Notes under the pieces: model-generated | Databases searched by the model: none | Seen by the model: only the letters and a program-made list of their open reading frames with translations | Told to the model about the DNA's origin: nothing | Part shown: positions 6,621-26,626 of the stretch, piece by piece | Position numbering within the stretch: the stretch's first letter is position 1 | How the letters are laid out: each line of letters starts with the position of its first letter | Translations under genes and position numbers: made by a program | Assembly (NCBI RefSeq): GCF_026343115.1 | Contig: NZ_JAPEMC010000001.1 | Coordinates: forward strand, 4,421,501 to 4,485,500 | Direction: 5' to 3' | DNA: 64,000 nt | Source of the DNA: Streptomyces sp. NBC_00102 | Lineage (GTDB): Bacteria > Actinomycetota > Actinomycetes > Streptomycetales > Streptomycetaceae

Positions 6621-6974
6621 ATGTCTGTACTCATCCATGTCTTCGTCGCCCTGCACATCATCGGCATCGCCTCCCTGCTGGGCGGCTTCCTGACACAGAT
6701 GAAGGCGATGGGTACCAACACCGCCCGGTTCTCGCCCGCGATGCTGCACGGCGCACTCACCATGCTGGTCACCGGCATCGCCCTCGTCGGCTTCCACCAG
6801 GCCGACGACAGCCCGGTCAACAACGTCAAGATCGGCATCAAGCTGCTGATCCTCGTCGTGATCCTGGCCCTCATCTACCTCAAGCGCGACGAGGAGAAGG
6901 TGTCCAAGGGCGCCTTCGCCGCCGTCGGCGGACTGACCGTCGCCAACATCTTCATCGCCACCCTCTGGACCTGA
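6621..6974 (+). CDS. small four-helix membrane protein, unknown function
   Basis: A 117-residue protein with four predicted membrane segments: about 3-25, 44-62, 71-88 and 97-116. Between the second and third lies a short polar loop 'QADDSPVNNVK'. The first helix contains His residues (LIHVFVALHIIG) reminiscent of haem- or metal-linked membrane proteins, but no family is assigned. It stands alone, with ATG 6621 close behind a probable -10 (GTTAGGCT), so a short leader is likely. Confidence 0.8.
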   Translation: MSVLIHVFVALHIIGIASLLGGFLTQMKAMGTNTARFSPAMLHGALTMLVTGIALVGFHQADDSPVNNVKIGIKLLILVVILALIYLKRDEEKVSKGAFAAVGGLTVANIFIATLWT

Positions 6975-7044
6975 TCGGGCCCGGGCGGGCGACCTGATCC
7001 CGCCCTGCGGGGGTGTGTCGGCGCGGCCCCTTAGGGTGCCGGGC

Positions 7045-7776: not shown

Positions 7777-7846
7777 CCGCCGCTCCGGTCCGGCACCCGG
7801 CAGGCGGGGGCCGGACGGTGTGGCGGGGGCGGGAGCAGCCCGCCGG

Positions 7847-9001: not shown

Positions 9002-9021
9002 GACGGCATCTCCTTCCATGG

Positions 9022-9205
9022 TCCGCCTACCGGGTTAGCTGTCGGGTTCGGGCGCGGAAGGCTGCCCTACGGGCCTGTACCGAACGAACGGAGTACGGGC
9101 CCGATTCACCCCGGTGGGACGTGTGGGTCCCCGGTTCCGGACAGCCGGGGGCGGGCCGGATTCGGCGGGGGCGGCCCTGTGGCGCGGTTCGCCTGTCAGG
9201 GGATA
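9022..9205 (-). promoter_or_regulatory. ydaO/yuaA-type c-di-AMP riboswitch
   Basis: Read on the complement strand, the leader contains the conserved blocks of this class in order: GGGGACCCA, then GGGGTGAATCGGG (near 9098-9115), then GTAGGGC (9064-9070), and the 3' block ACAGCTAACCCGGTAGGCG (9024-9042). The last block ends about 25 bases before the TTG start of the NlpC/P60 gene, at its ribosome site. Known members bind c-di-AMP and switch off downstream expression. The 5' limit is approximate. Confidence 0.88.
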
Positions 9206-9423
9206 CGGGCCGCCCGGCTGAGCACGGTAGCCAAGCGGTGGGGCGGCTGGGAAGGGCGATGGCCGATATGCCCGATACATTTTCGTGACCTTGGCGACGG
9301 GGGTCCGCCAGGGACGATTCCTCTCGCGCGCCGCGTACGGTCCTTGACACCCGGTGACGGTGGCCGTGGAGACTCCGCAAGGCCGCCCGGAGTGTCGTCA
9401 CGGGCATCTAAACTCGACAAGCG

Positions 9424-11925: not shown

Positions 11926-12040
11926 GAACCGGCGCCGCAGTCGGCCGGGGCTCCGGCAGGGTTCCTCGGCCGGGGTTCCGTGCGGGGTTGCCCGGCCGAA
12001 GTTCCGGCAGGGCTCGTCGGCCGGGGTGAGCGGGAGGCCG

Positions 12041-12063
12041 TTGTCAGAGCCTCCCGCTAGCGT
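12041..12063 (+). promoter_or_regulatory. near-match to the PafBC (RecA-NDp) damage promoter
   Basis: TTGTCAGAG, eight bases, then TAGCGT matches the published mycobacterial/streptomycete consensus TTGTCRGTG-N8-TAnnnT with one mismatch. It lies 43 bases before the GTG of the hydrolase gene. It overlaps a hairpin (12029-12038 with 12049-12058) that could end pcrA transcription. The damage-response reading is an inference from the consensus only. Confidence 0.45.
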
Positions 12064-12105
12064 GTCGGCGGCAGCCAGCTCCGACTCCTCTCCGGGAGAA
12101 CAACC

Positions 12106-12789
12106 GTGGACATCCTGCTCATCGCCGGCCTGTGGCTCGACGGATCCGCGTGGGACGACGTCGTGCCCGAACTCACGGCACTCGGCCACCGTCCCGTGCC
12201 GCTCGTCCTCCCCGGCCAGGGGGACGGCAACACCCTCGCCACGCTCGACGACCAGCTTGCGGCCGTGCTCGCGGCCGTCGACGCGGCGCCCGGGAAGCCC
12301 CTGGTGGTGGGGCACTCCGCCGCGTCGACCCTGGCCTGGCTGGCCGCCGACGCGCGACCGGAGAAGGTGGCCGGGGTCGCCCTGATCGGCGGCTTTCCCG
12401 CCGCCGACGGGCGGGCCTACGCCGATTTCTTCGCGATCGAGGGCGGCGTCATGCCCTTCCCGGGCTGGGGCCCCTTCGAGGGAGCGGACTCCGCCGACCT
12501 GGACCAGGAGGCCCGCCACCGCTTCGCGTCCGCAGCCGTCCCCGTCCCCGAGGGGGTCGCCAGGGGAGCCGTGCGCCTGACCGACGAGCGCCGTTTCGAC
12601 GTTCCCGTCGTGGTCGTCTGTCCCGAGTTCACCCCCTCGCAGGCCAAGGAGTGGATCGCCGCCGGCGAGAGCGCCGACCTCGCCCGCGTCTCCCGCCTCG
12701 AGTACGTGGACCTCGACTCGGGCCACTGGCCGATGGTCACGCGTCCCCGCGAGCTGGCCCGCGTCCTGGCGGAGGCCGCGAGCGCCTAA
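12106..12789 (+). CDS. small alpha/beta hydrolase
   Basis: A 227-residue cytoplasmic hydrolase starting at GTG 12106 behind GGGAGAAC. 'LLIAGLWLDGSAW' is the oxyanion-hole strand, the nucleophile Ser lies in 'VVGHSAAS', and the catalytic His in 'DSGHWPM'; the acid is probably in the 'VVVCPEF' region. The substrate cannot be told from sequence. It follows pcrA by 180 bases behind a possible damage-type promoter. Its TAA stop is part of the left end of the MITE-like element, so that element may have inserted at, or replaced, the original end of the gene. Confidence 0.82.
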   Translation: MDILLIAGLWLDGSAWDDVVPELTALGHRPVPLVLPGQGDGNTLATLDDQLAAVLAAVDAAPGKPLVVGHSAASTLAWLAADARPEKVAGVALIGGFPAADGRAYADFFAIEGGVMPFPGWGPFEGADSADLDQEARHRFASAAVPVPEGVARGAVRLTDERRFDVPVVVVCPEFTPSQAKEWIAAGESADLARVSRLEYVDLDSGHWPMVTRPRELARVLAEAASA

Positions 12790-12951
12790 GGGCTGTCCCG
12801 TAATCCCTGGTGGGTGCGCGACGACCGCTACGGCACCTCGCCGCGTTGTCGGAACGTCCACATACATCCAGTATGCGGACGCTCCTCCGCCTTGCGATGC
12901 ACCGCATCTGACGCCGCGCACTGATCCACCACGGATTACGGGACCCCTTAG
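12786..12951. mobile_element. MITE-like element with terminal inverted repeats
   Basis: A 166-bp non-coding unit bounded by imperfect terminal inverted repeats of about 28 bases: CTAAGGGCTGTCCCGTAATC at the left and GGATTACGGGACCCCTTAG at the right. An inner dyad flanks ATACATCCAGTAT. I recall close relatives dispersed in Streptomyces genomes, as expected for a transposase-less element mobilised in trans. No ORF is present. The right end lies about 70 bases from the stop of the M23 peptidase gene. Confidence 0.75.
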
Positions 12952-13022
12952 GCCGTGTCTGACGCGGACGTACGGGAGGGCCGGGTCCTGACGACCCGGC
13001 CCTTTCGTGAAATCCCTTGCGG

Positions 13023-14906
13023 CTACTGCGGGTTGAGCCCGTGGCTCGCCAGCCAGGGCAGCGGGTTGACCGCGGCGCCGCCGCCGGGGCGCACCTCGAA
13101 GTGCAGGTGCGGACCGGTGGAGTTGCCGGAGTTGCCGGAGTACGCGATCACGTCGCCGGCCTTCACCGAACCCGAGCGGATCTTGGTGCTGCTCAGATGG
13201 CAGTACCAGGTCTCGGTGCCGTCCTCCATGGTCACGATCGCCATGTTGCCGTAGGCGCTGTTCCACTGGGTGCGTACGGTTCCGTCGGTCGCGGCCATCA
13301 CCGGAGTCCCGTACTGCACGGGGAAGTCGATGCCGGTGTGCACGGACATCCAGTTGACGCCGGCCTGGCCGAAGTAGGCGCTGAGCCCGTGCTGGGCGAC
13401 GGGGAGCAGGTACTTGGGGCGGGCGGCCTCCTTGCGGGCGGCCTCCTCCTCGCGCTTCTTCTTGTCGGCGGCCTGCCGCTCCTTGAGGTCGATGCGCTCC
13501 TGCGTACGGCTGGCCCGGTCCCGGAAGTCCTCACCGGCGGCGCTGACCCCGGCGAGCTGGGTGTCCAGCTTGGTGTTGGACGCGAGCGCCTTGACGCCGG
13601 CCGTGTCGGCGGCGGCCATCGTCGTCGTGTCGTCCTTGGTCTCCTCGGTGCCCCCGAGTCCGCCGACCGACGCCGCCGCGATCCCCGCGACACCCATCAC
13701 GCAGGCGGACGGGACCGCGATCGTCAACAGCGCGGACCGCTTGGCGGGCGTACGCCGGCGGGCACGGTTCCGGGCGGCGGACCGGCCCTCCGGCCGGCCT
13801 TCGGAGTGCACCTCGGGCTGGTACGGGTCGGGCCAGGTGTCCGGGAGGCCGGACGGTTCACCGGACTCCGGTGCGGGTGAGGGGTCCTCGGCGGAGTCGG
13901 ACACCTCCGGCCCGTCCGTCGCGTGTTCGGGCGCCTGGTGTTCGGCGTTCTGGTGTTCGGGCACCTGGTGTTCGGGCACCGCCTCGTGATGCTCGGCGGG
14001 CGCGTAGGACATCTGTTCCGGGACGTACGCGGTCGCCCCGGGCGTGGCGTCGGGGTCCGACGCGGTGTTCCAGGCGGTCGCGTCGTAGGCGCCGGTGTCG
14101 TACGCGCCGGTGGCGAAGGCGGTGGGTGCCGCGTAGGCCGGAGTGCCGGAGGCGGGGGTGTCGTAGCCGGGGCTGTCGTAGCCGGTGGTGGCGCCGTAGC
14201 CGTCCGCCGCCTCGAAGGCGCGGGTGTCGAAGACGCCGGTGGTGTCGTGGTGCCCGATGTCGTACGCGCCGGTGCTGTGGGTCCCGTTTTCGAAGATGCC
14301 GGTCCCGTAGATGCCGGTGTCGTAGGCACCGGTCGTGTGGGCGGTGGGCCCGTAGCGGGTGTCGTCGGTCCCGTAGGCGGAGGGGGCTGCGGCGTATCCC
14401 GCCGTGTCGTACCCGCCCTGGGCCTCGTACGTGCCGGTGACCGGCGCGGCGGCCTGGTACGTCCCCGTCTCGGACAGGGATGACTCGAAGGTGGTGGTGG
14501 GGAAGGCGCCGGTGTCGGTGAAGGACCACTGCCCGGTCGTCGTGTGGGTCGCGGCCTGCTGCCAGGCGCTGGAGTCCCACTGCCCGGTCTCGTCGGGTGC
14601 GCCGGCCGACCTGCTGCCGGTGGTGTCGTACGCGTGCTGGTGCGCGGCCAGGGACTCCGCCGCGTAGGCGTCGTACGCGCCGCCGCTCTCCCAGGAGGAG
14701 CCGGTGGCGTAGGTGGTGTCCTGACCGGGATACGCGCCGTGGTGGGCGGCGGCCGTGGGGCCCGCCGCGAAATCGCTGTCGTATCCGGAACCGGGAGCGA
14801 CGCCGTGCTCGCCGGGGAGCGTCCCGTAGAGCGGACCGGCGGGGTAACTGCCGGTCTGTGACGTGTCGTATCCGGCGTACCCGGCGTGGGTGTGCTGGTC
14901 GTTCAC
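13023..14906 (-). CDS. M23 metallopeptidase with a long repetitive N-terminal region
   Basis: A 627-residue protein. Residues 1 to about 340 are low-complexity, Tyr/Gly/Thr/Ala/Asp-rich, with repeated TGAYDTG/TGIYGTG units. Then come an Arg/Lys patch, one membrane helix at about 392-414 (LLTIAVPSACVMGVAGIAAA), a coiled coil (about 435-490) and a C-terminal M23 endopeptidase domain (about 510-627). Metal-binding residues are visible in 'HTGIDFP' and 'GPHLHFEV' (H600, H602). M23 enzymes cut peptidoglycan cross-bridges; the topology suggests a membrane-anchored enzyme with a disordered cytoplasmic arm. GTG 14906 is chosen because the repeat region begins right after it and GAGAGAGAAG lies upstream. 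It neighbours two other wall hydrolases. Confidence 0.85.
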   Translation of the reverse strand: MNDQHTHAGYAGYDTSQTGSYPAGPLYGTLPGEHGVAPGSGYDSDFAAGPTAAAHHGAYPGQDTTYATGSSWESGGAYDAYAAESLAAHQHAYDTTGSRSAGAPDETGQWDSSAWQQAATHTTTGQWSFTDTGAFPTTTFESSLSETGTYQAAAPVTGTYEAQGGYDTAGYAAAPSAYGTDDTRYGPTAHTTGAYDTGIYGTGIFENGTHSTGAYDIGHHDTTGVFDTRAFEAADGYGATTGYDSPGYDTPASGTPAYAAPTAFATGAYDTGAYDATAWNTASDPDATPGATAYVPEQMSYAPAEHHEAVPEHQVPEHQNAEHQAPEHATDGPEVSDSAEDPSPAPESGEPSGLPDTWPDPYQPEVHSEGRPEGRSAARNRARRRTPAKRSALLTIAVPSACVMGVAGIAAASVGGLGGTEETKDDTTTMAAADTAGVKALASNTKLDTQLAGVSAAGEDFRDRASRTQERIDLKERQAADKKKREEEAARKEAARPKYLLPVAQHGLSAYFGQAGVNWMSVHTGIDFPVQYGTPVMAATDGTVRTQWNSAYGNMAIVTMEDGTETWYCHLSSTKIRSGSVKAGDVIAYSGNSGNSTGPHLHFEVRPGGGAAVNPLPWLASHGLNPQ

Positions 14907-15196
14907 CAACTTCTCTCTCGCCTCGGCAGCAGGACCAGTCCGGAGTTCAGTGGGGAGAGCCCCGGGAAGCAGTGGCCGCGACTGTACCTGTCGGTGTGTG
15001 ACGGCCACAATCTTCGGAAGGGTTTGGTCTCGGGGGAAGCGGGCATTCGGGCGCCTTTCGGCGGAGCCGAGACCTGTTGTTGGCGTTACGTTCGAGGAAT
15101 CCGTTCTTATTTCCGCCGTACGTGATGACGGAACGTAGTCACGACGGTTGACGCGGTGGGGGAACGGTGCACGATCGGCACGGAGGGGGAGATTCG

Positions 15197-16054
15197 GTGT
15201 ACGGGCCAACCAGAGGTGGCGAAGGCTGGGGATACGCCCTCAGGTCCGACGAGGACGAGGCCGACTTCTGGGGTTTCGCGCGCGGCGCGGAGGGGCTGTT
15301 CACGCCGCTCGGCGGGGACACGGAGAACACCGAGGGGGACGCGGCCGAAGAAGACGTCGACACGGGACGGCGACGGGTGCTCCTCACCGGCTGCCGCCCG
15401 GAGGGCGGCCTGCTGAAGGCGGCCGGCCGCATCGGTGGCCGACGTGCCGAGGCGGGGAACGCCCATCTCCGCGTACTCGACCCGGAGGGCGTCACCATGG
15501 GGGCCTACTTCGTCGGCGGCGTGACCGCCGTCGGTGCCCGGCCCTCCGCTCACGGGACCGGGCTGGTCGACCTCACGGTCGACCTGTGGTGCGACAACGC
15601 CTTGCCCGGATCGGAAGCGGCGTGGGACCTGGTCCGGGCCGGGGGGCCGGACCGTACAGGCCTGTGGCGCGGGCTCTCCACCGACGAGCAATGGACCTGG
15701 CTCTCCGTGGCGTTGTGGTCCCACGAGTACCACCGGCGGGGGAAACCCGAGCCCGAGGCCCGTTCCGGGCGGACGGTCACCGTGGACGGCCGGTACACCG
15801 TCGACCGGAACAGCTTCTTCTGCGCGATCGGGGAGGCGGTCAACGGGCCCGGCGGCTACTTCGGCTGGAACCTGGACGCGTTGGACGACTGCTTGATCGG
15901 CGGTTGGGGCGCCGCGCGCGGGTACACCCTCGAGTGGGTGAACTCGGCGGAAGCCCGGGCGCGGTTGGTGGAGCCGACGGGCTCGGGCGCCCCGCTCTTC
16001 GACGTGATCCTGGAGATCTTCGAGGAGCGGGGCGTCAGCGTCGTCCTCAGGTGA
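15197..16054 (+). CDS. two-domain protein with C-terminal barstar-like domain
   Basis: A 285-residue soluble protein. The C-terminal part (about 198-285) has the barstar pattern: 'GRYTVDRNSFFCAIGEAVNG', then 'FGWNLDALDDCL', then a final amphipathic region with 'FDVILEIFEERGVSVVLR'. Barstar domains bind and inhibit barnase-type RNases. The N-terminal domain (about 20-190: ADFWGFARGAEGLF, VDLWCDNALPGSE) is not recognised. GTG 15197 is preferred because GGAGGGGGAG precedes it directly. No barnase-like gene is in the window, so this could be an orphan immunity protein or a housekeeping barstar-fold protein. Confidence 0.75.
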   Translation: MYGPTRGGEGWGYALRSDEDEADFWGFARGAEGLFTPLGGDTENTEGDAAEEDVDTGRRRVLLTGCRPEGGLLKAAGRIGGRRAEAGNAHLRVLDPEGVTMGAYFVGGVTAVGARPSAHGTGLVDLTVDLWCDNALPGSEAAWDLVRAGGPDRTGLWRGLSTDEQWTWLSVALWSHEYHRRGKPEPEARSGRTVTVDGRYTVDRNSFFCAIGEAVNGPGGYFGWNLDALDDCLIGGWGAARGYTLEWVNSAEARARLVEPTGSGAPLFDVILEIFEERGVSVVLR

Positions 16055-16090
16055 CCGGCGATCCCGGGCCCGGATCTCCCTGTGCCACGG

Positions 16091-17002
16091 TCACGCCACG
16101 GTGGTGCCGCTCGCGGTGCCGGTGTGCGCCGGCGGGCCACCGGCGGACGGGAGCGGGATGCCGCCCGCCGCGTCGAGCTCCTGACGGATGCGGGCGGCGA
16201 CGGCCGGGTGCACGGGGAGCGCGAGGTGGCCGATGCCCGTGACGCGTACGTTCTCCGCGTCGAGATCCGGGTGGTCGATGCACGCGGTGCGTACCGGGAC
16301 CATCACCCGGTCCAGTTCGCTCCAGAACGAGACGAAATGTGTCCGGCACCCCGGCGCGGGGGTGCGCAGCTCCTCGATGAAGTCGGAGCCCGCGCGCATC
16401 TGGCGCACGATCGGGTGGGCGCTCGCCAGGGGCGCGACGGCGGTGCCGCCGTGCGGGGTGCCGAGCGTGACCAGGACGCGTACCCGGTGGTCACCGCCGA
16501 GGCACTGTACGTAGTACCGGGCGATCAGTCCCCCCAGGCTGTGCCCCACGATGTCCACCCGCTGGTGCCCGGTGCGCTCGCAGATCTCCTCGACGTGCCG
16601 CCCCAGCAGTTCGGCGGCCGCACGGATGTCGCAGGTCAGCGGGGAGTAGTTGAGCGACTCCAGATGGCGCCTGCCGTGCCGGGCGAGGGACCGGCGGAGC
16701 AGCACGAAGACGGAGCGGTTGTCGATGAACCCGTGCAGCAGTACCACCGGCGGCCGGTCGTCCTCGCGGGGAGGGGGCAGCGCCGCGACACCCGAGGGCA
16801 GCGCGTCGAGATCCTGCTCGATACCGGGGGTGGCTTTGCGGCGCTCCGGGGTGAGTCCGGTCGGGTAGAAGAGCACGTGTCCGGCGAGGATCGCCAGATC
16901 CAGTGCGGTGGCTCTGAGCAGCGCAGAAGAATCGCGCAGGCCGCTCGGTGACGGCAGGCGCAGCAGACGCGGCAGCAGGGTGAGCATCGAGAGCAGATTC
17001 AT
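16091..17002 (-). CDS. lipase/esterase, alpha/beta-hydrolase fold
   Basis: A 303-residue protein. An N-terminal hydrophobic region (about 1-50, with LLSMLTLLPRLLRL and ALDLAILAGHVLFY) suggests membrane association. The hydrolase core has the oxyanion motif 'VVLLHGFIDNRS', nucleophile S155 in 'VGHSLGGLIARY', and catalytic His in 'TGIGHLALPVHP'. It resembles triacylglycerol lipases of the PGAP1/LipA-like type. ATG 17002 is supported by AGGAGGTCGGCC. From memory it corresponds to the lipase gene next to icmB in S. coelicolor. The substrate is unknown. Confidence 0.83.
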   Translation of the reverse strand: MNLLSMLTLLPRLLRLPSPSGLRDSSALLRATALDLAILAGHVLFYPTGLTPERRKATPGIEQDLDALPSGVAALPPPREDDRPPVVLLHGFIDNRSVFVLLRRSLARHGRRHLESLNYSPLTCDIRAAAELLGRHVEEICERTGHQRVDIVGHSLGGLIARYYVQCLGGDHRVRVLVTLGTPHGGTAVAPLASAHPIVRQMRAGSDFIEELRTPAPGCRTHFVSFWSELDRVMVPVRTACIDHPDLDAENVRVTGIGHLALPVHPAVAARIRQELDAAGGIPLPSAGGPPAHTGTASGTTVA

Positions 17003-17652
17003 GGCCGACCTCCTGCACCGGCACGCGCGAACGGCTTCGGTCCCGCGCGCCTTCAGGGGGTGCCGTCGTGAGGTCACTGCCGGCCGGTCGACCGGCATTC
17101 GTGTCACCGGACTCCGTGCCGGCCGGACTCCGTGTCGGACGGTGGCGGTTTGTGGCCGGGCGCTGTGCCGGCCGGTGCCCACAGCTGCCGTGTCCCGCAC
17201 TGCTCGGAGCCGTGTCGCTTCGTTCCGTGAGCGGCCCGGACCGGGTCCCGACGGCCGGTATCTCCGGCCCGCCGGCCGTCCGCTCCCCCGGCAGCCCTGC
17301 TACGGCTGCCGGAGGACCGGACGGTCGCGGGGGCCTCACCTCCGCGCCGTGCGGCTGACGGCGCGGGTGTGCGGCGACCTCTGGCGGCTCCCCAGTACGG
17401 CCGTCCCCGGGTGGCGGGTGTGCGCCTCCCGATGCGGGGGCGGGCGTATGGCGAACATGTCCCACAGGGAGATTTCCCCCCTCACGTCCTTCACGAAACA
17501 GGGCGCGACGGGGAAGGATGCTGAAGATAACGTTCGTTCACATCCGTGGGGTCGTCGGGAGCGGGACACGGCGCGGGCCGCGGCGCGGATCGCGGCGGTT
17601 CTCCGCGGCGGAGCGGGCGACCGGCGGTGCGGGAGACCAGGTGGAGGCAGTG
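17003..17652. other. 650-base intergenic region upstream of icmB and the lipase gene
   Basis: No convincing gene. The first half is GC-rich with an imperfect repeat of CGTGCCGGCCGGACTCCGTG type near 17068-17140, and is probably leader or promoter sequence for the lipase. The second half, near 17495-17540, is less GC-rich (TTCACGAAACAGG, GAAGATAACGTTCGTT) and is the likely promoter area for icmB. Confidence 0.45.
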
Positions 17653-18066
<414 letters not shown>

Positions 18067-18111
18067 TCCGGGTGGAGCGAAGCACCTGTGACGGGCTCGG
18101 TGACCGGGTTG

Positions 18112-18191
18112 CCCGGTGACCCGGTGACCCGGTGACCCGGTGACCCGGTGACCCGGTGACCCGGTGACCCGGTGACCCGGTGACCCGGTGA
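18112..18191. repeat. perfect 8-bp tandem repeat, ten copies
   Basis: The unit CCCGGTGA is repeated ten times without error from 18112 to 18191, then decays (CTCGGTGT) into a GGCGGCCT run. It lies downstream of icmB and of the convergent DUF5691 gene. Such a run would vary in length by strand slippage. It is not CRISPR: no spacers exist. Confidence 0.9.
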
Positions 18192-18313
18192 CTCGGTGTA
18201 CTGGCGGCCTGGCGGCCTGGCGGCCCGGCGGCCCGGTGACCGGGTGTGACGTGTGGGGATCCGAGGCGGGTGACCCCCGATGATCGAAGCGGGCGGGGTT
18301 CGGGTTGCGGGGC

Positions 18314-18369
18314 GGTGGCGTTCGGGTCGCCGATGCGGGGGCGGGTGGCGTTCGGGTCGCCGATGCGGG
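18314..18369. repeat. 30-bp direct repeat, 1.9 copies
   Basis: The unit beginning GGTGGCGTTCGGGTCGCCG occurs at 18314 and 18344 with a period of 30 bases. It lies just past the 3' end of the DUF5691 gene (stop at 18394 on the complement strand). The rest of the 327-base gap 18067-18393 holds no gene. Confidence 0.85.
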
Positions 18370-18393
18370 CCGCACCCGGTCCACCACCGTGCG

Positions 18394-20163
18394 TCAGGCG
18401 CCGACCTCCGCCAGTTCGGCTTCCATGGCCGCGCGCAGGCGGAGGGTGGAGACCAGCCTCTGGAAGGCCTCGGACCAGTAGCCGCCCGCGCCGGGGGAGG
18501 CGTCCTCGCGTTCGTCCCCCGTGGTGGTGAGGACCTCCAGCCGGTCGGCCTCGCCGGGATCGAGGCAGCGCTCGGCCAGCCCCATGACTCCGCTGAAGCT
18601 CCAGGGGTAACTGCCCGCATCCCGGGCGATGTCGAGAGCGTCCACGACCGCTCGCCCGAGCGGGGCCGCCCACGGCACCGCGCACACACCCAGCAGTTGG
18701 AACGCCTCGGACAGGCCGTGGGCCGCTATGAAGTCGGCGGCCCAGACGGCGCGTTCCTCCCGGGGGAGGGTCGCGAGGAGCTTGGACCGCTCCGCCGGCG
18801 AGTCCGTCCCGGTGGTGTCCGACGGGGGCGCGGTGGGAACCCCGAGCAACGCCCGCGCCCACTCCCCGTCCCGCTGCCGAACGGCGGCGCGGCACCAGGC
18901 GGCGTGCAGATCCGCGGCCCAGTCGTCGCCCACCGGCAGCCCGACCACCTCCCGCGCCGTGCGTCCGCCGAGCTTCGCGGACCAGGTCGCGAGCGGCGTC
19001 GACTCGATCAACTGGCCGAACCACCAAGACCGTTCGCCCTTCCCTGCCGGTGGTACCGCGACCACGCCGTCCCGCTGCATCGCCGCGTCGCACTCGTACG
19101 GTGCCTCTATCAGCAGGGAGGGTCCGTCGGGGTTCGGTGAGGGGCCGCCGGACCTGCGGTCCAGGACGACGCAGGAGGCCGCACGGGCGGCCATCCGGCG
19201 GCCCAACGCCGTGTCGGGCAGGGTGGAGAGGAGCTCCGCGGCGGTGGCGCGGACATTGCGGCTGCGGTCGTCGAGCGCCTCCTCCAGGAAGTCCTCGTCG
19301 GCTCCGGAGAGCCTGGCGCGGAGGGTGTCCAGGAACATCAGCCGGTCCTCGGCGCGCTCGGCGGACCAGGTGCCGGCGAGCAGGTCCCGCGCGGCCTCCG
19401 GATCGCGGAGCCGTACGGCACTGAGCAGCGCGATCCGCTCCGTGAACAGCCCCTCCTCCCAGAGTTCGCGCACCGCGTCCGCGTCGGCGCCACCGCCGGG
19501 GCCTCCCCGGAGAGCGGCCTGCGGGGCGCCGTCGCGCAGGGCGAACCGCCAGTCCGGGTTCAGGCCGGCCAGCCAGCGACCGCGCTGTCCGGCGAAGGTC
19601 AACGCGTGCGGACGCAGATCCGTGCGGGCCCGCGCCGCGTCCAGCAAGGACGGGAGCAGCGCCGCGGGGGCGCGGTAACCATGGCGGTTGGCGGCGGCCA
19701 GCCACTGCGGGATCAGCTCCGTCAGGTCGGGGGCCGTGCCCCGCCTGCCGCTGGGGGAACCGCCCGTCCGGTCCGCGAGAAGTTGCGCGAGCCGACGGCG
19801 GGCCGCCTCGGGCAGCGGCGGACGGGGGTCCTCGGGGGCCCGGTCGGGGAGAGTCCCGGCCGCTGCGGGGCGCAGCCCAGCCCGCCGGCGCACGGCGTGC
19901 ACCGCCGCCGCGTCCAGCAGGGCGGCCGGACTGCCGCAGGTGCCGTCCGGCGAGGTGGCGGGGCGGCGGTCCGTACCGAGGAGGGCCCGGGTGACCAACT
20001 CGTCCCACTGCTCGTCCCACTGCTGGGGCTGGGGCTGGGGCTGGGGCTGGGGCTGTGGACGGTCGGCCGGGCCCCGGTCGGCCGCGAAGTCCGGCGCGGT
20101 GGCGTGGTGGTGGTCGTGATCCGGGCAACCTGGTGCGGAAGACGGCGGGTTCGTGGCGGTCAT
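18394..20163 (-). CDS. DUF5691-type protein of the MoxR/VWA cluster
   Basis: A 589-residue soluble, Leu/Ala/Arg-rich protein. After a His/Pro-rich head and a Pro-Gln run (about 37-46, encoded by repeats of CTGGGG at 20022-20054), the body begins with 'WDELVTRALLGTDRRP', typical of the DUF5691 group found beside SWIM and MoxR genes. The middle consists of helical, HEAT-like segments (LLAGTWSAERAEDRLMFLDTL, FLEEALDDRSRNVRATAAELL quoted in part) suggesting a protein-interaction scaffold. ATG 20163 has a clean GGAGGTGAACC site. It is downstream of, and co-directional with, the SWIM-like gene. Biochemical function is unknown. Confidence 0.75.
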   Translation of the reverse strand: MTATNPPSSAPGCPDHDHHHATAPDFAADRGPADRPQPQPQPQPQPQQWDEQWDELVTRALLGTDRRPATSPDGTCGSPAALLDAAAVHAVRRRAGLRPAAAGTLPDRAPEDPRPPLPEAARRRLAQLLADRTGGSPSGRRGTAPDLTELIPQWLAAANRHGYRAPAALLPSLLDAARARTDLRPHALTFAGQRGRWLAGLNPDWRFALRDGAPQAALRGGPGGGADADAVRELWEEGLFTERIALLSAVRLRDPEAARDLLAGTWSAERAEDRLMFLDTLRARLSGADEDFLEEALDDRSRNVRATAAELLSTLPDTALGRRMAARAASCVVLDRRSGGPSPNPDGPSLLIEAPYECDAAMQRDGVVAVPPAGKGERSWWFGQLIESTPLATWSAKLGGRTAREVVGLPVGDDWAADLHAAWCRAAVRQRDGEWARALLGVPTAPPSDTTGTDSPAERSKLLATLPREERAVWAADFIAAHGLSEAFQLLGVCAVPWAAPLGRAVVDALDIARDAGSYPWSFSGVMGLAERCLDPGEADRLEVLTTTGDEREDASPGAGGYWSEAFQRLVSTLRLRAAMEAELAEVGA

Positions 20164-20405
20164 GGTTCACCTCCGGCAGACGGGAACGCGGGTGGGTGGG
20201 CGGGAAGAGCGGCGCCGGGTGGGCGGGAAGAGCGGCGTCGGGTGGGCGAGGAGAGCGGCGTCGGGTGGGCGGGGAGAGCGGCGCCGGGGTCGGCAGAGTG
20301 GGGTGACGGGGCTGGGGCGGGCGAGGCGCGGTGACGGAGAGGTCCGGGCGGTCCCGGCTCCGGCCGCCCGGGCCGGGCGGGCCAGGTCCGGCAGTGCGGG
20401 CAGGG

Positions 20406-21452
20406 TCAGGCCAGGGCGACGGTCTCGACCGGGCCCTCCCCGCCCGCGTGTCCGCCACCCTCTCCGGCGGACCACGCCGTCAGAGGGGCGAAGCCGCGCG
20501 GGCCCAGCTCGCCGAAGACCGTGACCGGCCCGCCGCCCGACAGTGCGGCCAGCCGCCAGAGCCCCGGCCGGGAACGGGGGTCCCCCGCTATCGGCAGGGC
20601 GGTCCCGGTCCTCTCGTCGGCGAGCTGCCAGCGGCCGGCGGAGGGGACCGGTATCACCGTGCCCAGCACCGCCGGATGCCTCTCCGCCCAGGGGTCTTCG
20701 CCCAGCGCCCTGCCGTATCCGGCGAGGGCCTCGGCGGGGGAGACGCCCGGCGGCGGGGCGGCGGCGGGATCCGGGGTGCCGAACACCGCCCCCGGCTCGG
20801 CCCGGTGCCCCGCACCCGGATGCGGCGTCAGCTCCGCCTCCAGCACCGTGCCCACGGGCAGGGACCGCTCCGGGGCGCGTCCCCCCGCTCCGTAGGAGAG
20901 CAGCACCAGCGTGCGGCCCGAGTCCTCTCCGTACAGCCAGATACGGCGAGTGACGATCTTGCCGTCCGGGGTGTCGTACTGGGCGAGCACCTGCCAGCGG
21001 TCGCGCACCGGCCGGCCGTCCGCGGCGGAGGACAGTCCCACCCGGGTGCGGACCGTCGCCAGCAGGGATGGTGGCAGCCGATCGCGGTCGAGCCAGGCGG
21101 TGTTGAGCAGATGGAGCAAGCCGCACTCCTCCAGCATCCGCGCGGGCCACCCCGCCCCGGACGCGGGCAGCGCGCCCAACTCGCGGACCCGGGATGCCAG
21201 TCCGGGGGCCTGCGCGTCGACCATCCGGGCGGCGGTCTCCTCCCAGTGGGTGCCGCCGGACTGTCCGGACACCGCGAGGCCGGAGCGCAGGAGGTCGGCG
21301 AGGCGCTCCTCCAACTCTCGTGCTCCATCGGCGATCCGGGCAGACCTCCGCTCGGCTCGCTTGCGCGCCGCCTCGGCGTCGGCCGGGGCGGCGGGTGCGC
21401 GTCCCGCCCGATCGGCGGTCCGCGCGGACTCTCCCTCATGAGACAGCAGCAT
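20406..21452 (-). CDS. SWIM-family protein lacking its zinc-finger N-terminus
   Basis: A 348-residue protein whose body (ELEERLADLLRSGL, 'AARMVDAQAPGLASRVREL', 'PPSLLATVRTRVGL', 'VRDRWQVLAQYDT') matches the region after the finger in actinomycete SWIM zinc-finger proteins. The usual N-terminal part with the CxCxnCxH finger, roughly 80-100 residues, is absent: only about 30 unrelated residues precede the homologous body. ATG 21452 is well supported, because a damage-type promoter with -10 TAACGT places the transcript start at this ATG (leaderless). The gene thus keeps its promoter but not its finger. It is divergent from the MoxR operon. Confidence 0.75.
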   Translation of the reverse strand: MLLSHEGESARTADRAGRAPAAPADAEAARKRAERRSARIADGARELEERLADLLRSGLAVSGQSGGTHWEETAARMVDAQAPGLASRVRELGALPASGAGWPARMLEECGLLHLLNTAWLDRDRLPPSLLATVRTRVGLSSAADGRPVRDRWQVLAQYDTPDGKIVTRRIWLYGEDSGRTLVLLSYGAGGRAPERSLPVGTVLEAELTPHPGAGHRAEPGAVFGTPDPAAAPPPGVSPAEALAGYGRALGEDPWAERHPAVLGTVIPVPSAGRWQLADERTGTALPIAGDPRSRPGLWRLAALSGGGPVTVFGELGPRGFAPLTAWSAGEGGGHAGGEGPVETVALA

Positions 21453-21459
21453 GGCGACG

Positions 21460-21482
21460 ACGTTAGGGCCTCCCACTGACAA
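21460..21482 (-). promoter_or_regulatory. PafBC (RecA-NDp)-type promoter of the SWIM-like gene
   Basis: On the complement strand TTGTCAGTG (21482-21474), eight bases, TAACGT (21465-21460) is an exact match to the published consensus TTGTCRGTG-N8-TAnnnT. ATG 21452 begins about 7 bases after the -10, implying a leaderless transcript. The TTGTCAGTG half belongs to a perfect 13-base inverted repeat shared with the opposite promoter (21473-21485 and 21517-21529). Confidence 0.8.
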
Positions 21483-21519
21483 TCGCGCTGACCTGCGGTG
21501 ACGGTGAGTGAGGGACCGA

Positions 21520-21542
21520 TTGTCAGTGGCGTGGTGCACGGT
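21520..21542 (+). promoter_or_regulatory. PafBC-type promoter of the MoxR operon
   Basis: TTGTCAGTG, eight bases, CACGGT fits the damage-promoter consensus except for the first base of the -10. It faces the MoxR gene 46 bases upstream of its ATG. Its -35 block is the right arm of the perfect 13-base inverted repeat CCACTGACAATCG / CGATTGTCAGTGG. Confidence 0.7.
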
Positions 21543-21588
21543 GGTGACACATCGGACCGAGCGATGAGCGATCTGGAGGAGGGGGACC

Positions 21589-22863
21589 ATGACCGGATAC
21601 GAACGAGCCGGGAATCCGGCTGCCACCGGCCACACGCCGGACGCCGGACCGCAGGGCGCCGACGCTCGCGTGGGTGCGCTGCCGGACGGTGCATTGCGGG
21701 ACGGTGCGTTGCGGGATGGTGCGACGCGGGACGGTGCGTTGCGGGACGGCGGGTCTGGGGACGGTGCGCCGCCCGACGCGGGGGTGCGGGCACTCCGGCC
21801 GCACGCCGAGGACGCGTTCGCCGACGAACTCAAGGCGCTGGCCGCCGCCGACGACCGCCCCAGGCCCGCCCGTTGGCGCCTCTCGCCGTGGGCCGTCGCC
21901 ACCTATCTGCTCGGCGGGGCACTCCCGGACGGCACGGTGATCACCCCCAAGTACGTGGGCCCGCGCCGGCTCGTCGAGGTCGCCGTGTCCACCCTCGCCA
22001 CCGATCGCGCCCTGCTGCTCCTCGGCGTCCCCGGCACCGCCAAGACCTGGGTTTCCGAGCACCTCGCGGCGGCCGTCAGCGGTGATTCGACCCTCCTCGT
22101 CCAGGGCACCGCAGGCACGCCCGAGGAAGCGATCCGGTACGGCTGGAACTACGCCCGGTTGCTCACCGACGGCCCGAGCCGCGCCGCTCTGGTGCCCGGC
22201 CCGGTGATGCGAGCCATGGCCGAGGGGCTGACCGCCCGGGTGGAGGAGCTGACCCGCATCCCGGCCGACGTGCAGGACTCGCTCATCACGATCCTCTCGG
22301 AGAAGACCCTGCCCGTCCCCGAGCTCGGCCAGGAGGTCCAGGCGGTCCGGGGGTTCAACCTCATCGCCACCGCCAACGACCGCGACCGGGGCGTCAACGA
22401 GCTGTCCAGCGCGCTCCGTCGGCGCTTCAACACCGTCGTGCTGCCGCTCCCGGCGACCCCCGAGGACGAGGTGGACATCGTCTCGCGCCGCGTCGATCAA
22501 CTGGGCCGCGCCCTGGACCTGCCGGCCGCTCCCGAGGGTCTGACCGAGATACGGCGCGTGGTCACCGTCTTCCGGGAACTCCGCGACGGCGTCACCACCG
22601 ACGGCCGCACCCGGGTCAAATCCCCCTCGGGCACGCTCTCCACCGCCGAGGCGATCTCCGTGGTCACCCACGGCCTCGCGCTCGCCGCCCACTTCGGCGA
22701 CGGGACCCTGCGCCCGGGCGACGTCGCCGCCGGAATCCTCGGCGCGGTCGTCCGGGACCCCGCGGCGGACCGGGCCGTCTGGCAGGAGTATCTGGAGACC
22801 GTCGTACGCGAGCGGGACGGCTGGAAGGACTTCTACCGGGCCTGCCGCGAGGTCTCGCCATGA
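21589..22863 (+). CDS. MoxR-family AAA+ ATPase
   Basis: A 424-residue AAA+ protein. Residues 31-55 are five repeats of a five-residue LRDGA-like unit (15-bp DNA repeat at 21679-21753), probably disordered. Walker A is 'GVPGTAKTW' (146-154, K152); Walker B and sensor regions follow around 'LTRIPADVQDSLITIL' and 'FNLIATANDRDRGVNELSSAL', with the arginine finger in 'RRRFN'. MoxR ATPases act as chaperones with a VWA-domain partner to assemble or remodel protein complexes. ATG 21589 has a GGAGGAGGGGGACC site. It overlaps the next gene by ATGA, so MoxR, DUF5682 and VWA genes form one operon under the damage-type promoter. Confidence 0.9.
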   Translation: MTGYERAGNPAATGHTPDAGPQGADARVGALPDGALRDGALRDGATRDGALRDGGSGDGAPPDAGVRALRPHAEDAFADELKALAAADDRPRPARWRLSPWAVATYLLGGALPDGTVITPKYVGPRRLVEVAVSTLATDRALLLLGVPGTAKTWVSEHLAAAVSGDSTLLVQGTAGTPEEAIRYGWNYARLLTDGPSRAALVPGPVMRAMAEGLTARVEELTRIPADVQDSLITILSEKTLPVPELGQEVQAVRGFNLIATANDRDRGVNELSSALRRRFNTVVLPLPATPEDEVDIVSRRVDQLGRALDLPAAPEGLTEIRRVVTVFRELRDGVTTDGRTRVKSPSGTLSTAEAISVVTHGLALAAHFGDGTLRPGDVAAGILGAVVRDPAADRAVWQEYLETVVRERDGWKDFYRACREVSP

Positions 22864-25349
22864 CCTCGCCGCGCACGGCCCCGGCACCCCCGCCCCGGAA
22901 GGCCACCACTCGGCGCCCCAGGACTCCGGGGCCCCTGCTTCTGGGTGTGCGGCACCACGGCCCGGGGTCCGCGCGGGCCGTGCTCGCCGCGCTGGACGCG
23001 GTGCGGCCGCGCGCCGTGCTGGTCGAAGGGCCCCCGGAGGGCGACGCGTTGCTGCCGCTCGCCGCCGATCCGCAGATGCGCCCCCCGGTGGCTCTGCTCG
23101 CGCACGCCGAGGACGATCCGGGGCTCGCGTCGTTCTGGCCGATGGCGGAGTTCTCGCCCGAGTGGGTCGCGATCCGCTGGGCCCTCGCGCACGGGGCGGC
23201 CGTCCGCTTCATCGACCTGCCCGCCGCCCATTCGCTGGCCCTCGCGGCGGCGGCCCGTGGCGAGGAGCCCGGGGATACGGCCGGCCGGGGCGAGGAGCCC
23301 GGGGACACGGCGGGCCGGGGCGAGGAGCCCGGGGAGACCGAGCCCGCCCCGCCCGACCCGATCGCGGTGCTCGCCGAGGCCGCCGGTCACGACGACCCCG
23401 AGCGCTGGTGGGAGGACGTGGTGGAGCACCGGTCCGCCGCGTCCGGTGCCGACCCCGTCGCCCCGTTCACCGCGCTGGCCGAGGCGATGACGGCGCTGCG
23501 CGAGACGTACGGGGACGGCGGGCATCCCCACGACGACGTACGCGAGGCCTTCATGCGCATCCGGCTGCGGGCGGCACGCAAGGAGTTCGGCGACGAGGTC
23601 GCGGTCGTCTGCGGCGCCTGGCACGTGCCCGCCCTCGCCGCGCGAACGACCCTCACCGCCGACCGCTCCCTGGTGAAGGGACTCCCCAAGGTCCGGACCG
23701 GCATGACCTGGGTGCCCTGGACGCACCACCGGCTGGCCCGGCGCAGCGGATACGGCGCCGGGATCGAGGCCCCCGGCTGGTACGCCCACCTCTTCCACGC
23801 GCCGGACCGGCCCGTGGAGCGCTGGATGACGAAGGTCGCGGGCCTGCTCCGCGACCAGGACCGGTTCGTCTCCCCGGCCCACGTCATCGAGGCGGTACGG
23901 CTCGCCGGGACGCTCGCCGCCCTGCGCGGGCGCCCGCTCGCCGGGCTGGACGAGGCCACCGACGCGGTCCGGGCCGTCATGTGCGACGGGTCCGACGTGC
24001 CCCTCGCCCTCGTCCACGACGGACTCGTCGTCGGCGACACACTCGGCGAAGTCCCCGACGGCGCACCGGCCGTGCCGCTCCAACGGGACCTGACCCGGCA
24101 GCTGCGCACCCTGCGCCTGAAGCCGGAACCGTCCGACCGCGAGGTGGAGTTCGACCTCCGCCAGGACACCGACGCGGCGCGGAGCCGGCTCCTGCACCGG
24201 CTGCGCCTGCTCGCCGTGGACTGGGGCGAGCCCGTGGCCGGCCGGGGGAGCACCGGCACCTTCCGGGAGACCTGGCGGCTGCGGTGGGAACCGGAACTCT
24301 CGGTCCGGATCGCGGAGGCCGGCACCTGGGGCACCACGGTGCTCACCGCCGCCACCGCCAAGGCCGAGTCCGACGCGAGGGCGGCGACCACCCTCGGCGA
24401 GGTCACCGCCCTCGCCGAACACTGCCTCCTCGCCGGACTGCCCGGCGCGCTGCGGGTGGTGATGCGGGCCCTCGCGGACCGGGCCGCGCTCGACGCGGAC
24501 GTGGCCCATCTCGCCGAAGCCCTCCCCGCGTTGGCCCGTTCACTGCGGTACGGGGACGTACGGGCCACGGACACCGCGGCCCTCGGCGAGGTCGCCACCG
24601 GGCTGGCGACCCGGATCTGCGTCGGGCTGCCCGCCGCCTGCACGGGCCTGGACGCCGACAGCGCGGAGGCGATGCGCCGCGCGGTGGACGAGGTGCACGG
24701 CGCGATCGCCCTCCTGGCAGCCCCGGACGGGCGGGTGGCCCCGGACGGGCCTGGAACGGGTGGGCTGCGGGGCCGTTGGGCGGCGGTGCTCCGCACACTG
24801 TCGGCCCGGGACACCGTCGCCGGGGTCGTCCGGGGCCGCGCCGCCCGGCTGCTGCTGGACGAGGGCCGGCTCGCGGACGACGAGGCGGCGCGGCTCATGG
24901 GCCTCGCCCTCTCGCCCGGCGCCCCGCCCCCGCAGGCCGCCGCGTGGATCGACGGCTTCGTCGGAGGAGCCTCCGGCGGCGGGATGCTCCTCGTGCACGA
25001 CGAGCGCCTGCTCGCCCTCGTGGACGGCTGGCTGACCGGAGTACCCGACCACGCCTTCACGGACGTGCTGCCGCTGCTCCGGCGCACCTTCTCCGCGTAC
25101 GAACCCGGCGTGCGGCGCACCCTGGGGGAGCTGGCCCGCCGGGGCCCGGCCACGGCCGGACGGGCCCGCGGGCCAGGGACCCCAGCGGCTCTGCCCGGCT
25201 TCGGCCCGGAGCTGGACGGGCCCCGCGCCGACTCCGTACTCCCGGTGCTGCGCCTGATCCTCGGCCCCGACCGGGTCCCGGAGCGCTCGGAGCCCGAGCC
25301 CGACCGGACCCGGCCGGCCCTCCCACGTACAGGAGTTGATCGACCGTGA
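22860..25349 (+). CDS. DUF5682 family protein, central gene of the MoxR/VWA operon
   Basis: An 829-residue soluble protein starting in an ATGA overlap with the MoxR gene and ending in a GTGA overlap with the VWA gene. The N-terminus 'LLGVRHHGPGSARAVLAALD' and 'VLVEGPPEGDALLPL' is the family landmark and looks like an enzyme fold beginning with a Gly-His-rich loop. A 30-bp tandem repeat at 23259-23338 encodes three EEPGDTAGRG-like units. The C-terminal two-thirds is helical and Ala/Leu/Arg-rich. No known catalytic signature is certain. The family always travels with MoxR and VWA genes, so it is probably the effector or client of that pair. Confidence 0.8.
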   Translation: MTSPRTAPAPPPRKATTRRPRTPGPLLLGVRHHGPGSARAVLAALDAVRPRAVLVEGPPEGDALLPLAADPQMRPPVALLAHAEDDPGLASFWPMAEFSPEWVAIRWALAHGAAVRFIDLPAAHSLALAAAARGEEPGDTAGRGEEPGDTAGRGEEPGETEPAPPDPIAVLAEAAGHDDPERWWEDVVEHRSAASGADPVAPFTALAEAMTALRETYGDGGHPHDDVREAFMRIRLRAARKEFGDEVAVVCGAWHVPALAARTTLTADRSLVKGLPKVRTGMTWVPWTHHRLARRSGYGAGIEAPGWYAHLFHAPDRPVERWMTKVAGLLRDQDRFVSPAHVIEAVRLAGTLAALRGRPLAGLDEATDAVRAVMCDGSDVPLALVHDGLVVGDTLGEVPDGAPAVPLQRDLTRQLRTLRLKPEPSDREVEFDLRQDTDAARSRLLHRLRLLAVDWGEPVAGRGSTGTFRETWRLRWEPELSVRIAEAGTWGTTVLTAATAKAESDARAATTLGEVTALAEHCLLAGLPGALRVVMRALADRAALDADVAHLAEALPALARSLRYGDVRATDTAALGEVATGLATRICVGLPAACTGLDADSAEAMRRAVDEVHGAIALLAAPDGRVAPDGPGTGGLRGRWAAVLRTLSARDTVAGVVRGRAARLLLDEGRLADDEAARLMGLALSPGAPPPQAAAWIDGFVGGASGGGMLLVHDERLLALVDGWLTGVPDHAFTDVLPLLRRTFSAYEPGVRRTLGELARRGPATAGRARGPGTPAALPGFGPELDGPRADSVLPVLRLILGPDRVPERSEPEPDRTRPALPRTGVDRP

Positions 25350-26626
25350 CGGAACACGTGAACGGGGCCGGACCGGCCCCGGAGCCCCCGCACCCGCCGA
25401 CCGCGCGGACCTCCGGCGACGAGCGGCTGAGGAGGTGGCGGCTGGTGCTCGGCTCCGACAGCGCGGAGTCCACCGGCCACACCCCCGAAGGCCGGGACGC
25501 CGCCATGGACCGCACCCTCACCGCGCTCTACGGCGGCGCGAAGAACCCGGGCACCAGGACACCCGCCGAGCGCGGGGCCGGACTCGGAGCGTCCGCTCCC
25601 GCCGCGGCCCGCTGGCTCGGCGACATCCGTACGTACTTCCCCGCCCCGGTGGTCCAGGTCATGCAGCGGGACGCGATCGAGCGGCTCGGCCTCGCCGCCC
25701 TGCTACTGGAGCCCGAGATGCTCGACGCGGTCGAAGCCGACGTCCACCTCGTCGGCGCCCTCCTCCAGCTCGGCGGGGCGATGCCGGAGACCACCCGGGA
25801 GACGGCCCGTGCGGTGGTGCGCAAGGTCGTCGCCGACCTGGAGAGGAGGCTGGCCGGCCACACCCGGGCGACCCTCACCGGCGCGCTCGACCGGTCCGCG
25901 CGCATCGGCAGACCGCGCCACCGCGACATCGACTGGAACCGCACCGTCCGCGCCAACCTCAAGAACTGGGTCCCGCTGCCCGCGGCGGACGGTACGGACC
26001 CCACGAGCGACGAGGACCCGGCGAACGGCGCGAGCCGTGCGGCCGGCGCGGGCACCGTCGTCCCCGAGCGGCTCGTCGGCTACGGCCGGGCGGGCAGGTC
26101 CGTACGCAAGGAGATCGTTCTCTGCGTCGACCAGTCGGGTTCGATGGCCGCCTCCGTCGTCCACGCGGCCGTCTTCGGGGCGGTCCTCGCCTCGATGCGC
26201 TCGCTGGACACCCGGCTGATCGTGTTCGACACCGCCGTCGTGGACCTCACCGACCAGCTCGACGACCCGGTCGACGTGCTCTTCGGCACCCGGCTCGGCG
26301 GCGGTACGGACATCAACCGGGCCCTCACCTACTGCCAGGCACGCATCACCCGCCCCGCCGACACCGTCGTCGTGCTGATCAGCGATCTCTACGAAGGGGG
26401 GATACGCGACCGGATGATCCAGCGGGTCGCGGCGATGAGGGACGCGGGAGTGGAGTTCGTGGCCCTGCTCGCGCTCTCGGACGAGGGGGCCCCCGCGTAC
26501 GACCACGACCACGCGGCGGCCCTGGCCGCCCTCGGGGTCCCCGCCTTCGCCTGCACCCCGGACCTCTTCCCCGAGGTGATGGCGGCGGCCCTGGAGAAGC
26601 GGCCCCTGCCGGTCCCGGAGCGGTAG
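25346..26626 (+). CDS. VWA-domain protein, partner of the MoxR ATPase
   Basis: A 426-residue soluble protein. The N-terminal half is helical (WRLVLGSDS, MDRTLTALYG, ERLGLAALLLEPEML); the VWA domain occupies about 255-420. The metal-ion (MIDAS) site is complete: D262-x-S264-x-S266 in 'VDQSGSMAAS', T321 in 'GGGTDINRAL' and the Asp of 'VVLISDLYEGG'. Such proteins deliver clients to MoxR ATPases. The GTG start overlaps the stop of the DUF5682 gene. It closes the operon; three CCGGCACGAGC repeats follow its stop. Confidence 0.9.
   Translation: MTEHVNGAGPAPEPPHPPTARTSGDERLRRWRLVLGSDSAESTGHTPEGRDAAMDRTLTALYGGAKNPGTRTPAERGAGLGASAPAAARWLGDIRTYFPAPVVQVMQRDAIERLGLAALLLEPEMLDAVEADVHLVGALLQLGGAMPETTRETARAVVRKVVADLERRLAGHTRATLTGALDRSARIGRPRHRDIDWNRTVRANLKNWVPLPAADGTDPTSDEDPANGASRAAGAGTVVPERLVGYGRAGRSVRKEIVLCVDQSGSMAASVVHAAVFGAVLASMRSLDTRLIVFDTAVVDLTDQLDDPVDVLFGTRLGGGTDINRALTYCQARITRPADTVVVLISDLYEGGIRDRMIQRVAAMRDAGVEFVALLALSDEGAPAYDHDHAAALAALGVPAFACTPDLFPEVMAAALEKRPLPVPER

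Follow-up and report, generated by a model that had tools for sequence, protein, structure and literature searches.

The question raised by a stretch of 64,000 nucleotides (the window) from Streptomyces sp. NBC_00102 (contig NZ_JAPEMC010000001.1, positions 4,421,501 to 4,485,500) is what purpose is served by five neighbouring genes within it. The genes encode a MoxR-type ATPase, a DUF5682 protein and a VWA-domain protein in the right-hand arm, and a SWIM-family protein and a DUF5691 protein in the divergent arm (Table 1); the source genome is 8.6 Mb in size, and its nearest relatives by protein comparison are Streptomyces. A preliminary description had treated the five as a single system under damage-type promoters, with DUF5682 as effector and a damage or conflict response as the likely purpose. 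The five genes form one conserved unit. Promoter sequences make it highly probable that this unit belongs to a damage regulon, and what it encodes is, with reasonable likelihood, a MoxR/YehL-type remodelling machine induced by DNA damage.

The gene models and domains named at the outset were confirmed by Pfam matches and a check of open reading frames (ORFs), as were two 4-base overlaps in the right-hand arm (MoxR/DUF5682 and DUF5682/VWA); against NCBIfam, the five proteins gave weak matches only. DUF5682 is present in 39 of 396 Actinomycetota genomes, and among the genomes listed all 20 of the window's genus (its own included) match it. The 56 match rows were reduced to 51 places (the window, L004 and L045-L093) by leaving out four weak or fragmentary matches (G224:C302, G330, G367:C11 and G331) and one (G049) that is another part of a gene already counted. 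In the 49 actinobacterial loci L045-L093, DUF5682 is accompanied by an adjacent MoxR gene in 48 and a VWA gene in 49, and the sole locus lacking an adjoining MoxR gene (L093) begins at a contig end. A further 80 named loci, the top-scoring 80 out of at least 586 matches and all but a few from Streptomyces, contain all five genes in 67 cases; each of the remaining 13 is situated at a contig end or close to one. The preliminary description had named a distribution of the five families mostly apart as grounds for abandoning it; since they are found together across loci, in Actinomycetota and in Deinococcus, this objection falls away.

Three types of system share the DUF5682 core. In type A, that of the window, a SWIM-family gene and DUF5691 accompany MoxR-DUF5682-VWA, divergently in Streptomyces and collinearly elsewhere; each of the 13 type A loci from outside Streptomyces (L064, L080 and L082-L092) has both SWIM-family and DUF5691 sequence, joined in one ORF in L080 and L082, and no finger motif was seen in the joined ORF of L082. 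On a 430 kb replicon of Deinococcus taeanensis the order is SWIM, DUF5691, AAA, a small gene, DUF5682 and VWA. Type B consists of B347, a protein of about 1,700 amino acids, MoxR, and DUF5682 fused to VWA. Type C combines DUF4132 (with a WGR domain in L076 and L077, without it in L075), MoxR, DUF5682, VWA and SWIM in the gene order of Escherichia coli yehI-yehL-yehM-yehP-yehQ. Adjacency of the genes across phyla, the joined SWIM-DUF5691 ORFs and the DUF5682-VWA fusion of type B all support the association. The genome of the window also carries a type B system of its own (L004, 8203-19870, on contig C8, coordinates 6000-25900), with a protein of about 1,700 amino acids that has no Pfam match and a damage promoter with two mismatches. 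Two loci from two other actinobacterial families (L078 and L079) show a fourth arrangement, a divergent MoxR and VWA pair with weak DUF5682 similarity. In four single entries from one source (P0121, P0123, P0125 and P0130) DUF5682 is fused to an AAA, VWA or SWIM domain, possibly as a frameshift artefact.

The damage-type promoters of the preliminary description are real. The RecA-independent damage promoter of mycobacteria has the consensus tTGTCRgtg - 8 nt - TannnT (PMC5656591), and the regulator PafBC, which is triggered by single-stranded DNA (PMC11804915), works through this RecA-NDp consensus (PMC8223512). In the window, the site facing the SWIM-DUF5691 arm agrees with the consensus exactly, whereas the site facing the MoxR arm has CANNNT as its -10 element. 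The SWIM-directed site is perfect in 80 of 93 loci and has at most one mismatch in its first nine bases in 90, two loci with a wrongly cut or short intergenic stretch (L119 and L162) being scored as misses; it was never recovered in 9,300 single-base shuffles. The SWIM start codon, an ATG, lies 7 nt past the -10 element in the window, 6-8 nt past it in 83 of 90 loci, and exactly 7 nt past it in 78, a spacing that points to a leaderless mRNA for this arm and fixes the SWIM start. The nine bases of the MoxR-directed site are perfect in 85 of 90 loci (L119, L134 and L162 left out) and found in 89 when one mismatch is allowed, as compared with 14 of 4,500 shuffles. Its -10 element is CANNNT in all 89 loci having a site, and the C in place of T at the first base suggests an arm that is weaker or differently timed.

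The same pattern occurs 10 times in the genome of the window, one site being that of recA, and not once in a reversed control; across 61 Streptomyces genomes, this one included, there are 10-44 occurrences per genome against 0-2 in the control. In another genome (G023), 11 of the 20 sites other than that of the DUF5682 locus precede a repair or replication gene (ung, ruvC, uvrA, uvrB, ogt, pcrA, recA, two RecD2-like genes, a DnaN-like and a DinG-like gene), the other nine preceding a DEAD/DSHCT helicase, a GmrSD-like gene, a sigma factor, a SUKH-4 protein, ribosomal S6 and unassigned genes. A RecA-NDp promoter has already been published for S. coelicolor SCO6735 (PMC5087735), and the counts indicate that a RecA-NDp regulon exists across Streptomyces, which one study doubted after an initial search found the M. 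smegmatis motif not to be conserved in S. venezuelae (PMC9380542). In the accounts of the mycobacterial PafBC regulon, as far as these are drawn on, the genes of the window's system are not named. Other occurrences of the pattern include a near-match (one mismatch) at window positions 12041-12063 (+), roughly 40 nt ahead of a gene at 12106 that encodes an alpha/beta hydrolase. A protein with a SWIM-like Cys/His cluster stands behind a perfect damage promoter both in the genome of the window (L007) and in G023 (L192), the latter protein having no Pfam match. Three identical damage-type promoters (L012, L013 and L014, on contigs C3, C4 and C9), each followed 7 nt on by a 497-aa ORF, look as if they lay on repeated chromosome ends or related replicons.

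The promoter is common to all three system types in Streptomyces: apart from the window genome's own copy, type B loci have a site in eight of eight cases (five perfect, three with one mismatch) and type C loci in two of two. Together with its conservation at type A loci, this makes the link to damage strong within the genus. The picture outside Streptomyces weighs against this assignment, since at no more than one mismatch a site was found in none of 13 type A loci, none of two type B loci and one of two type C loci (one mismatch). The yehF-yehI stretch of E. coli is, we take it, the molR locus. In E. coli, molR is counted among the genes regulated by LexA (PMC11039860, PMC4576408), and depletion of DdrO strongly raises a Deinococcus radiodurans operon that includes a DUF4132 gene (PMC8533742); outside the Streptomyces group the damage link is indirect and runs through DUF4132/WGR genes. 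No DdrO box was found in Deinococcus by a pattern search. A CTG-N10-CAG match before yehF agrees at 13 of 20 positions with the SOS consensus and adds little by itself since position 21904 of the same E. coli stretch scores equally.

The protein around which these systems are built is best approached through its predicted structure. The AF2 model of DUF5682 (mean pLDDT 83.1, pTM 0.79) has a helical solenoid as its C-terminal half and an N-domain with a parallel beta core flanked by helices, the arrangement expected of the TIKI/TraB/ChaN/erythromycin-esterase (Ere) superfamily. A Foldseek search with the whole model was swamped by helical repeats, and a clean list was obtained only from the N-domain folded alone. 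Seven of its ten best VIA rows are accounted for by ChaN, HopBA1, two EreC entries, a toxin-domain entry with RRSP-like numbering and two Bcr135-like proteins labelled "succinoglycan biosynthesis"; the other three are one Tetrahymena complex IV subunit. A HEAT-type scaffold had been suggested for DUF5691 in the preliminary description, and the predicted solenoid seen here lies in DUF5682. Searched by sequence and profile against the PDB, DUF5682 gave chance matches only. The preliminary description had remarked on a Gly-His-rich start, which is indeed present and is more exactly a conserved GVRHHGP, the first of two GxxH motifs of the TIKI-like domain. R31, H32 and H33 are invariant in 16 of 16 sequences drawn from three system types, and G29, R31, H32 and H33 are kept in at least 90% of 76 sequences. 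A conserved His-Glu pair characterizes the TIKI superfamily (PMC6254334), to which H32/H33 and E56 would correspond, and the two GxxH motifs and a conserved Glu and Arg are likewise held in common with it. The 2His/2Glu motif of Ere-type proteins is incomplete in DUF5682, which has GVRHH where they have GExxH and thus no second Glu, and DUF5682 is therefore not filed as an erythromycin esterase. Its profile did not match eight Ere-family proteins in a crude comparison of whole ORFs, other domains included; these represent eight of 13 Ere loci, two having given no ORF (L201 and L204) and three shorter or partial ones having been left out (L205-L207). TraB was found in one of 118 and one of 396 genomes, the same genome in both cases, and its locus (L194) gave no ORF, one genome being too few for a profile. 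Unlike proteins of this superfamily, DUF5682 carries a long helical C-domain and has MoxR-VWA partners. The claim that DUF5682 is the effector gains from the predicted fold, and its being a hydrolase is judged slightly the better bet.

The SWIM-family protein of the divergent arm is less uniform. The window copy was called a SWIM relative in the preliminary description, and homologues support its membership of the family; the copy itself, scanned as the longer ORF 20406-21902, has no Pfam match at E 0.01 and no CxC..CxH finger, whereas an intact relative matches PF04434. The motif CxCPSxxxPCKH is kept in 17 of 20 Streptomyces loci, the window included. Among 93 SWIM-family proteins, with 73 of the 80 named loci entering the counts, the finger is present in 80, its ligands persist with altered neighbours in four, and it is absent in frame in nine, the window's among them. 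On a FastTree phylogeny of DUF5682 (92 loci, L129 left out) the finger changes eight times, at least seven of these changes being forced by well-supported branches, and the changes are inferred to be losses because the finger is present in other families. A start-codon artefact was rejected as an explanation of the missing finger, as no more than 7 nt separate the promoter from the ATG. All nine fingerless loci keep the rest of the SWIM gene and the partner genes, and their SWIM-directed promoter is perfect in seven and has one mismatch in two. With gene, partners and promoter retained in several lineages that lack it, the zinc finger looks like an optional recognition part.

Comparison with known systems places the unit among the MoxR proteins. 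Seven MoxR subfamilies have been distinguished, YehL among them (PMC3893208), and the hallmarks of a YehL-type system are found here: Walker A and an EE-type Walker B in 98 of 98 MoxR homologues, an adjoining VWA protein whose MIDAS motifs (DxSGS and GGTD) are kept in 94 of 94 homologues, and DUF5682 and SWIM-family genes in the cluster. YehL of E. coli as query gave 222 bits against the window MoxR, a measure of pairwise similarity. The E. coli yehL-yehM-yehP-yehQ cluster contains the same MoxR, DUF5682, VWA and SWIM genes; its three core proteins are homologous in sequence to those of the window, YehM being 26% identical to the window DUF5682. It differs in having DUF4132 (YehI) and a collinear layout in place of the window's divergent arms, in a YehQ that keeps the SWIM finger, and in that no DUF5691 was found in the E. 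coli genome used as a control. RavA-ViaA likewise pairs a MoxR ATPase with a VWA cofactor, but the window VWA protein matches the ViaA model weakly, at 22 bits against a cut-off of 500, and RavA-ViaA is not known to have a DUF5682 partner.

In the mechanism favoured here, PafBC activated by single-stranded DNA would switch on both arms. MoxR, with the VWA protein as its MIDAS adaptor, would then remodel or load DUF5682 through ATP hydrolysis, and action of MoxR-VWA on DUF5682 is regarded as probable. DUF5682 would be the working part: its TIKI/ChaN/Ere-like domain would cut a damage-generated substrate at a peptide or ester bond, and the helical C-domain would hold the partners. SWIM-DUF5691 is tentatively assigned the choice of target, to which the zinc finger would contribute as a dispensable element. 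SWIM and WGR are modules linked to nucleic acids, and p97-SPRTN is a eukaryotic pairing of an AAA+ remodeller with a protease acting on protein on DNA. A bacterial counterpart, in which MoxR-VWA feeds DUF5682 as a TIKI-fold protease and so clears proteins trapped or crosslinked on damaged DNA, is a speculative extension and improbable; SWIM (types A and C) and WGR (type C) would guide the machine to DNA, and one catalytic core would be served by alternative sets of targeting modules, SWIM-DUF5691, B347-BigB and DUF4132-SWIM (WGR present or absent), each of them under the damage promoter in Streptomyces.

The damage-induced remodeller-hydrolase is favoured over a maturation chaperone on the model of CoxD-CoxE, NorQ-NorD or RavA-ViaA, in which MoxR-VWA would insert a metal or remodel one enzyme complex, DUF5682 would be a non-catalytic scaffold, and damage induction would serve the mending of a damaged metalloenzyme. 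MoxR-VWA pairs are known in such roles (PMC3893208), the VWA protein is CoxE-like, and a DUF4132 protein has been noted as possibly involved in molybdopterin synthesis; yet molybdate genes were unchanged in the same study (PMC8533742), no obvious client metalloenzyme was seen among the nine window neighbours scanned, and the invariance of the TIKI-like residues across three system types speaks against a mere scaffold, so that this reading is considered unlikely. A module for general stress or redox, placed under RecA-NDp promoters by chance and taking no part in repair, would suit the control of oxidative-stress genes by PafBC (PMC8223512) and the several G023 sites before non-repair genes such as those for the sigma factor and the SUKH-4 protein. 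It is hard to reconcile with the sharing of one promoter by three DUF5682 system types in Streptomyces, or with the control of DUF4132/WGR genes by other damage regulators in E. coli and Deinococcus, and is held to be improbable.

Both the remodeller-hydrolase and the chaperone are preferred to a conflict or suicide system, in which the machine would sense heavy damage or phage DNA and DUF5682 would kill or stall the cell. TIKI-fold proteins do include hydrolytic effectors (PMC6254334), and related vWA-MoxR ternary systems, which likewise join MoxR and vWA to a third component (VMAP or a beta-propeller), have been proposed as conflict systems (PMC7159879, PMC10910872). Unlike in those systems, the window MoxR scores below the cut-off of the bpMoxR model (21.3 bits against 27); no propeller or VMAP component appears in the Pfam results of the five proteins, no PADLOC model matches them at E 0.01, and the terms SWIM, yeh, TraB and DUF56 were not found in the searched text of PMC7159879. 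Membership of the conflict systems was rejected on the bpMoxR and PADLOC results. A mobile defence island was rejected as well, for in Streptomyces the locus belongs to the core genome and keeps its synteny, with DUF5691 in 282 of 296 genomes and, among the 82 loci of at least 15 kb, the window's B12-binding gene as a neighbour in 81, its lipase-like gene in 76 and its succinyl-CoA-ligase-like gene in 76. In E. coli, yehM is covered over at least 80% of its length in 5,166 of 5,426 genomes (95%), and 5,289 of 5,291 places are chromosomal. Among 72,556 plasmid records 23 carry a DUF5682 relative, some of the 23 running to millions of bases, and among 50,697 phage records one does. The conflict half of the preliminary description is thus not upheld, and a conflict system is the most improbable of the readings weighed.

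Table 1. Features of the five-gene locus in the window (positions of the window, with strand)
Feature	Position	Strand	Remarks
DUF5691 gene	18394-20163	-	589 aa, second in divergent arm; PF18944, 573.9 bits, E 6e-172
SWIM-family gene	20406-21452	-	348 aa; N-terminal SWIM zinc finger deleted in frame
RecA-NDp/PafBC-type site TTGTCAGTG-N8-TAACGT	21482-21460	-	perfect; faces SWIM-DUF5691 arm
Second divergent site TTGTCAGTG-N8-CACGGT	21520-21542	+	faces MoxR-DUF5682-VWA; -10 variant CANNNT
MoxR/AAA_5 ATPase gene, YehL-like	21589-22863	+	424 aa; PF07728, 129 bits, E 1.5e-37
DUF5682 gene, E. coli YehM homologue	22860-25349	+	829 aa; PF18934, 975 bits, E 3e-293
DUF5682 N-domain	22917-23729	+	residues ~20-290; TIKI/ChaN/Ere-like predicted fold
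First GxxH motif G29-VR-H32-H33	22944-22958	+	conserved motif GVRHHGP
E56 (VLVEGP)	23025-23027	+	candidate partner of His-Glu pair; invariant in 16- and 76-sequence sets
R228 (REAxMR)	23541-23543	+	invariant in 16- and 76-sequence sets
Second GxxH motif G252-AW-H255	23613-23624	+	G252 and H255 invariant in 16- and 76-sequence sets
DUF5682 C-domain	23787-25259	+	residues ~310-800; mostly helical, HEAT-like
VWA_CoxE gene, E. coli YehP homologue	25346-26626	+	GTG start, 426 aa; PF05762, 196 bits, E 8e-58

Elsewhere in the window, a c-di-AMP riboswitch (RF00379, 70 bits) lies at 9008-9163 (-), at the start of the ORF 7847-9019 (-). Genes for an M23 peptidase and a Barstar-domain protein (13023-16054) are found beside the locus in six and none, respectively, of 99 loci of relatives, many of them with short flanks, and being rare or absent there are probably strain-specific.

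The preliminary description thus stands as to the conserved unit and the damage link in Streptomyces and gains ground as to DUF5682 as effector, and about half of its view that the system is undescribed can be kept. YehL is already a named MoxR subfamily (PMC3893208); DUF5682 and DUF5691 were not found named in the literature searched, where only two papers, to judge by their titles a genome announcement and a strain resource, bring together two or more of YehL, YehM, YehP and YehQ. Within the limits of that search, what seems new is the damage regulon, the TIKI-like fold and the finger's repeated loss. DUF5682 is present in most E. coli genomes and, by sample, in nearly all Streptomyces. Five neighbouring Streptomyces genes and a related set in E. 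coli thus have the appearance of an ATP-driven machine built around a hydrolase-like protein, and the promoter link to DNA damage, with the predicted-fold link to hydrolases, would turn a hypothetical operon into a testable machine for repair or quality control.

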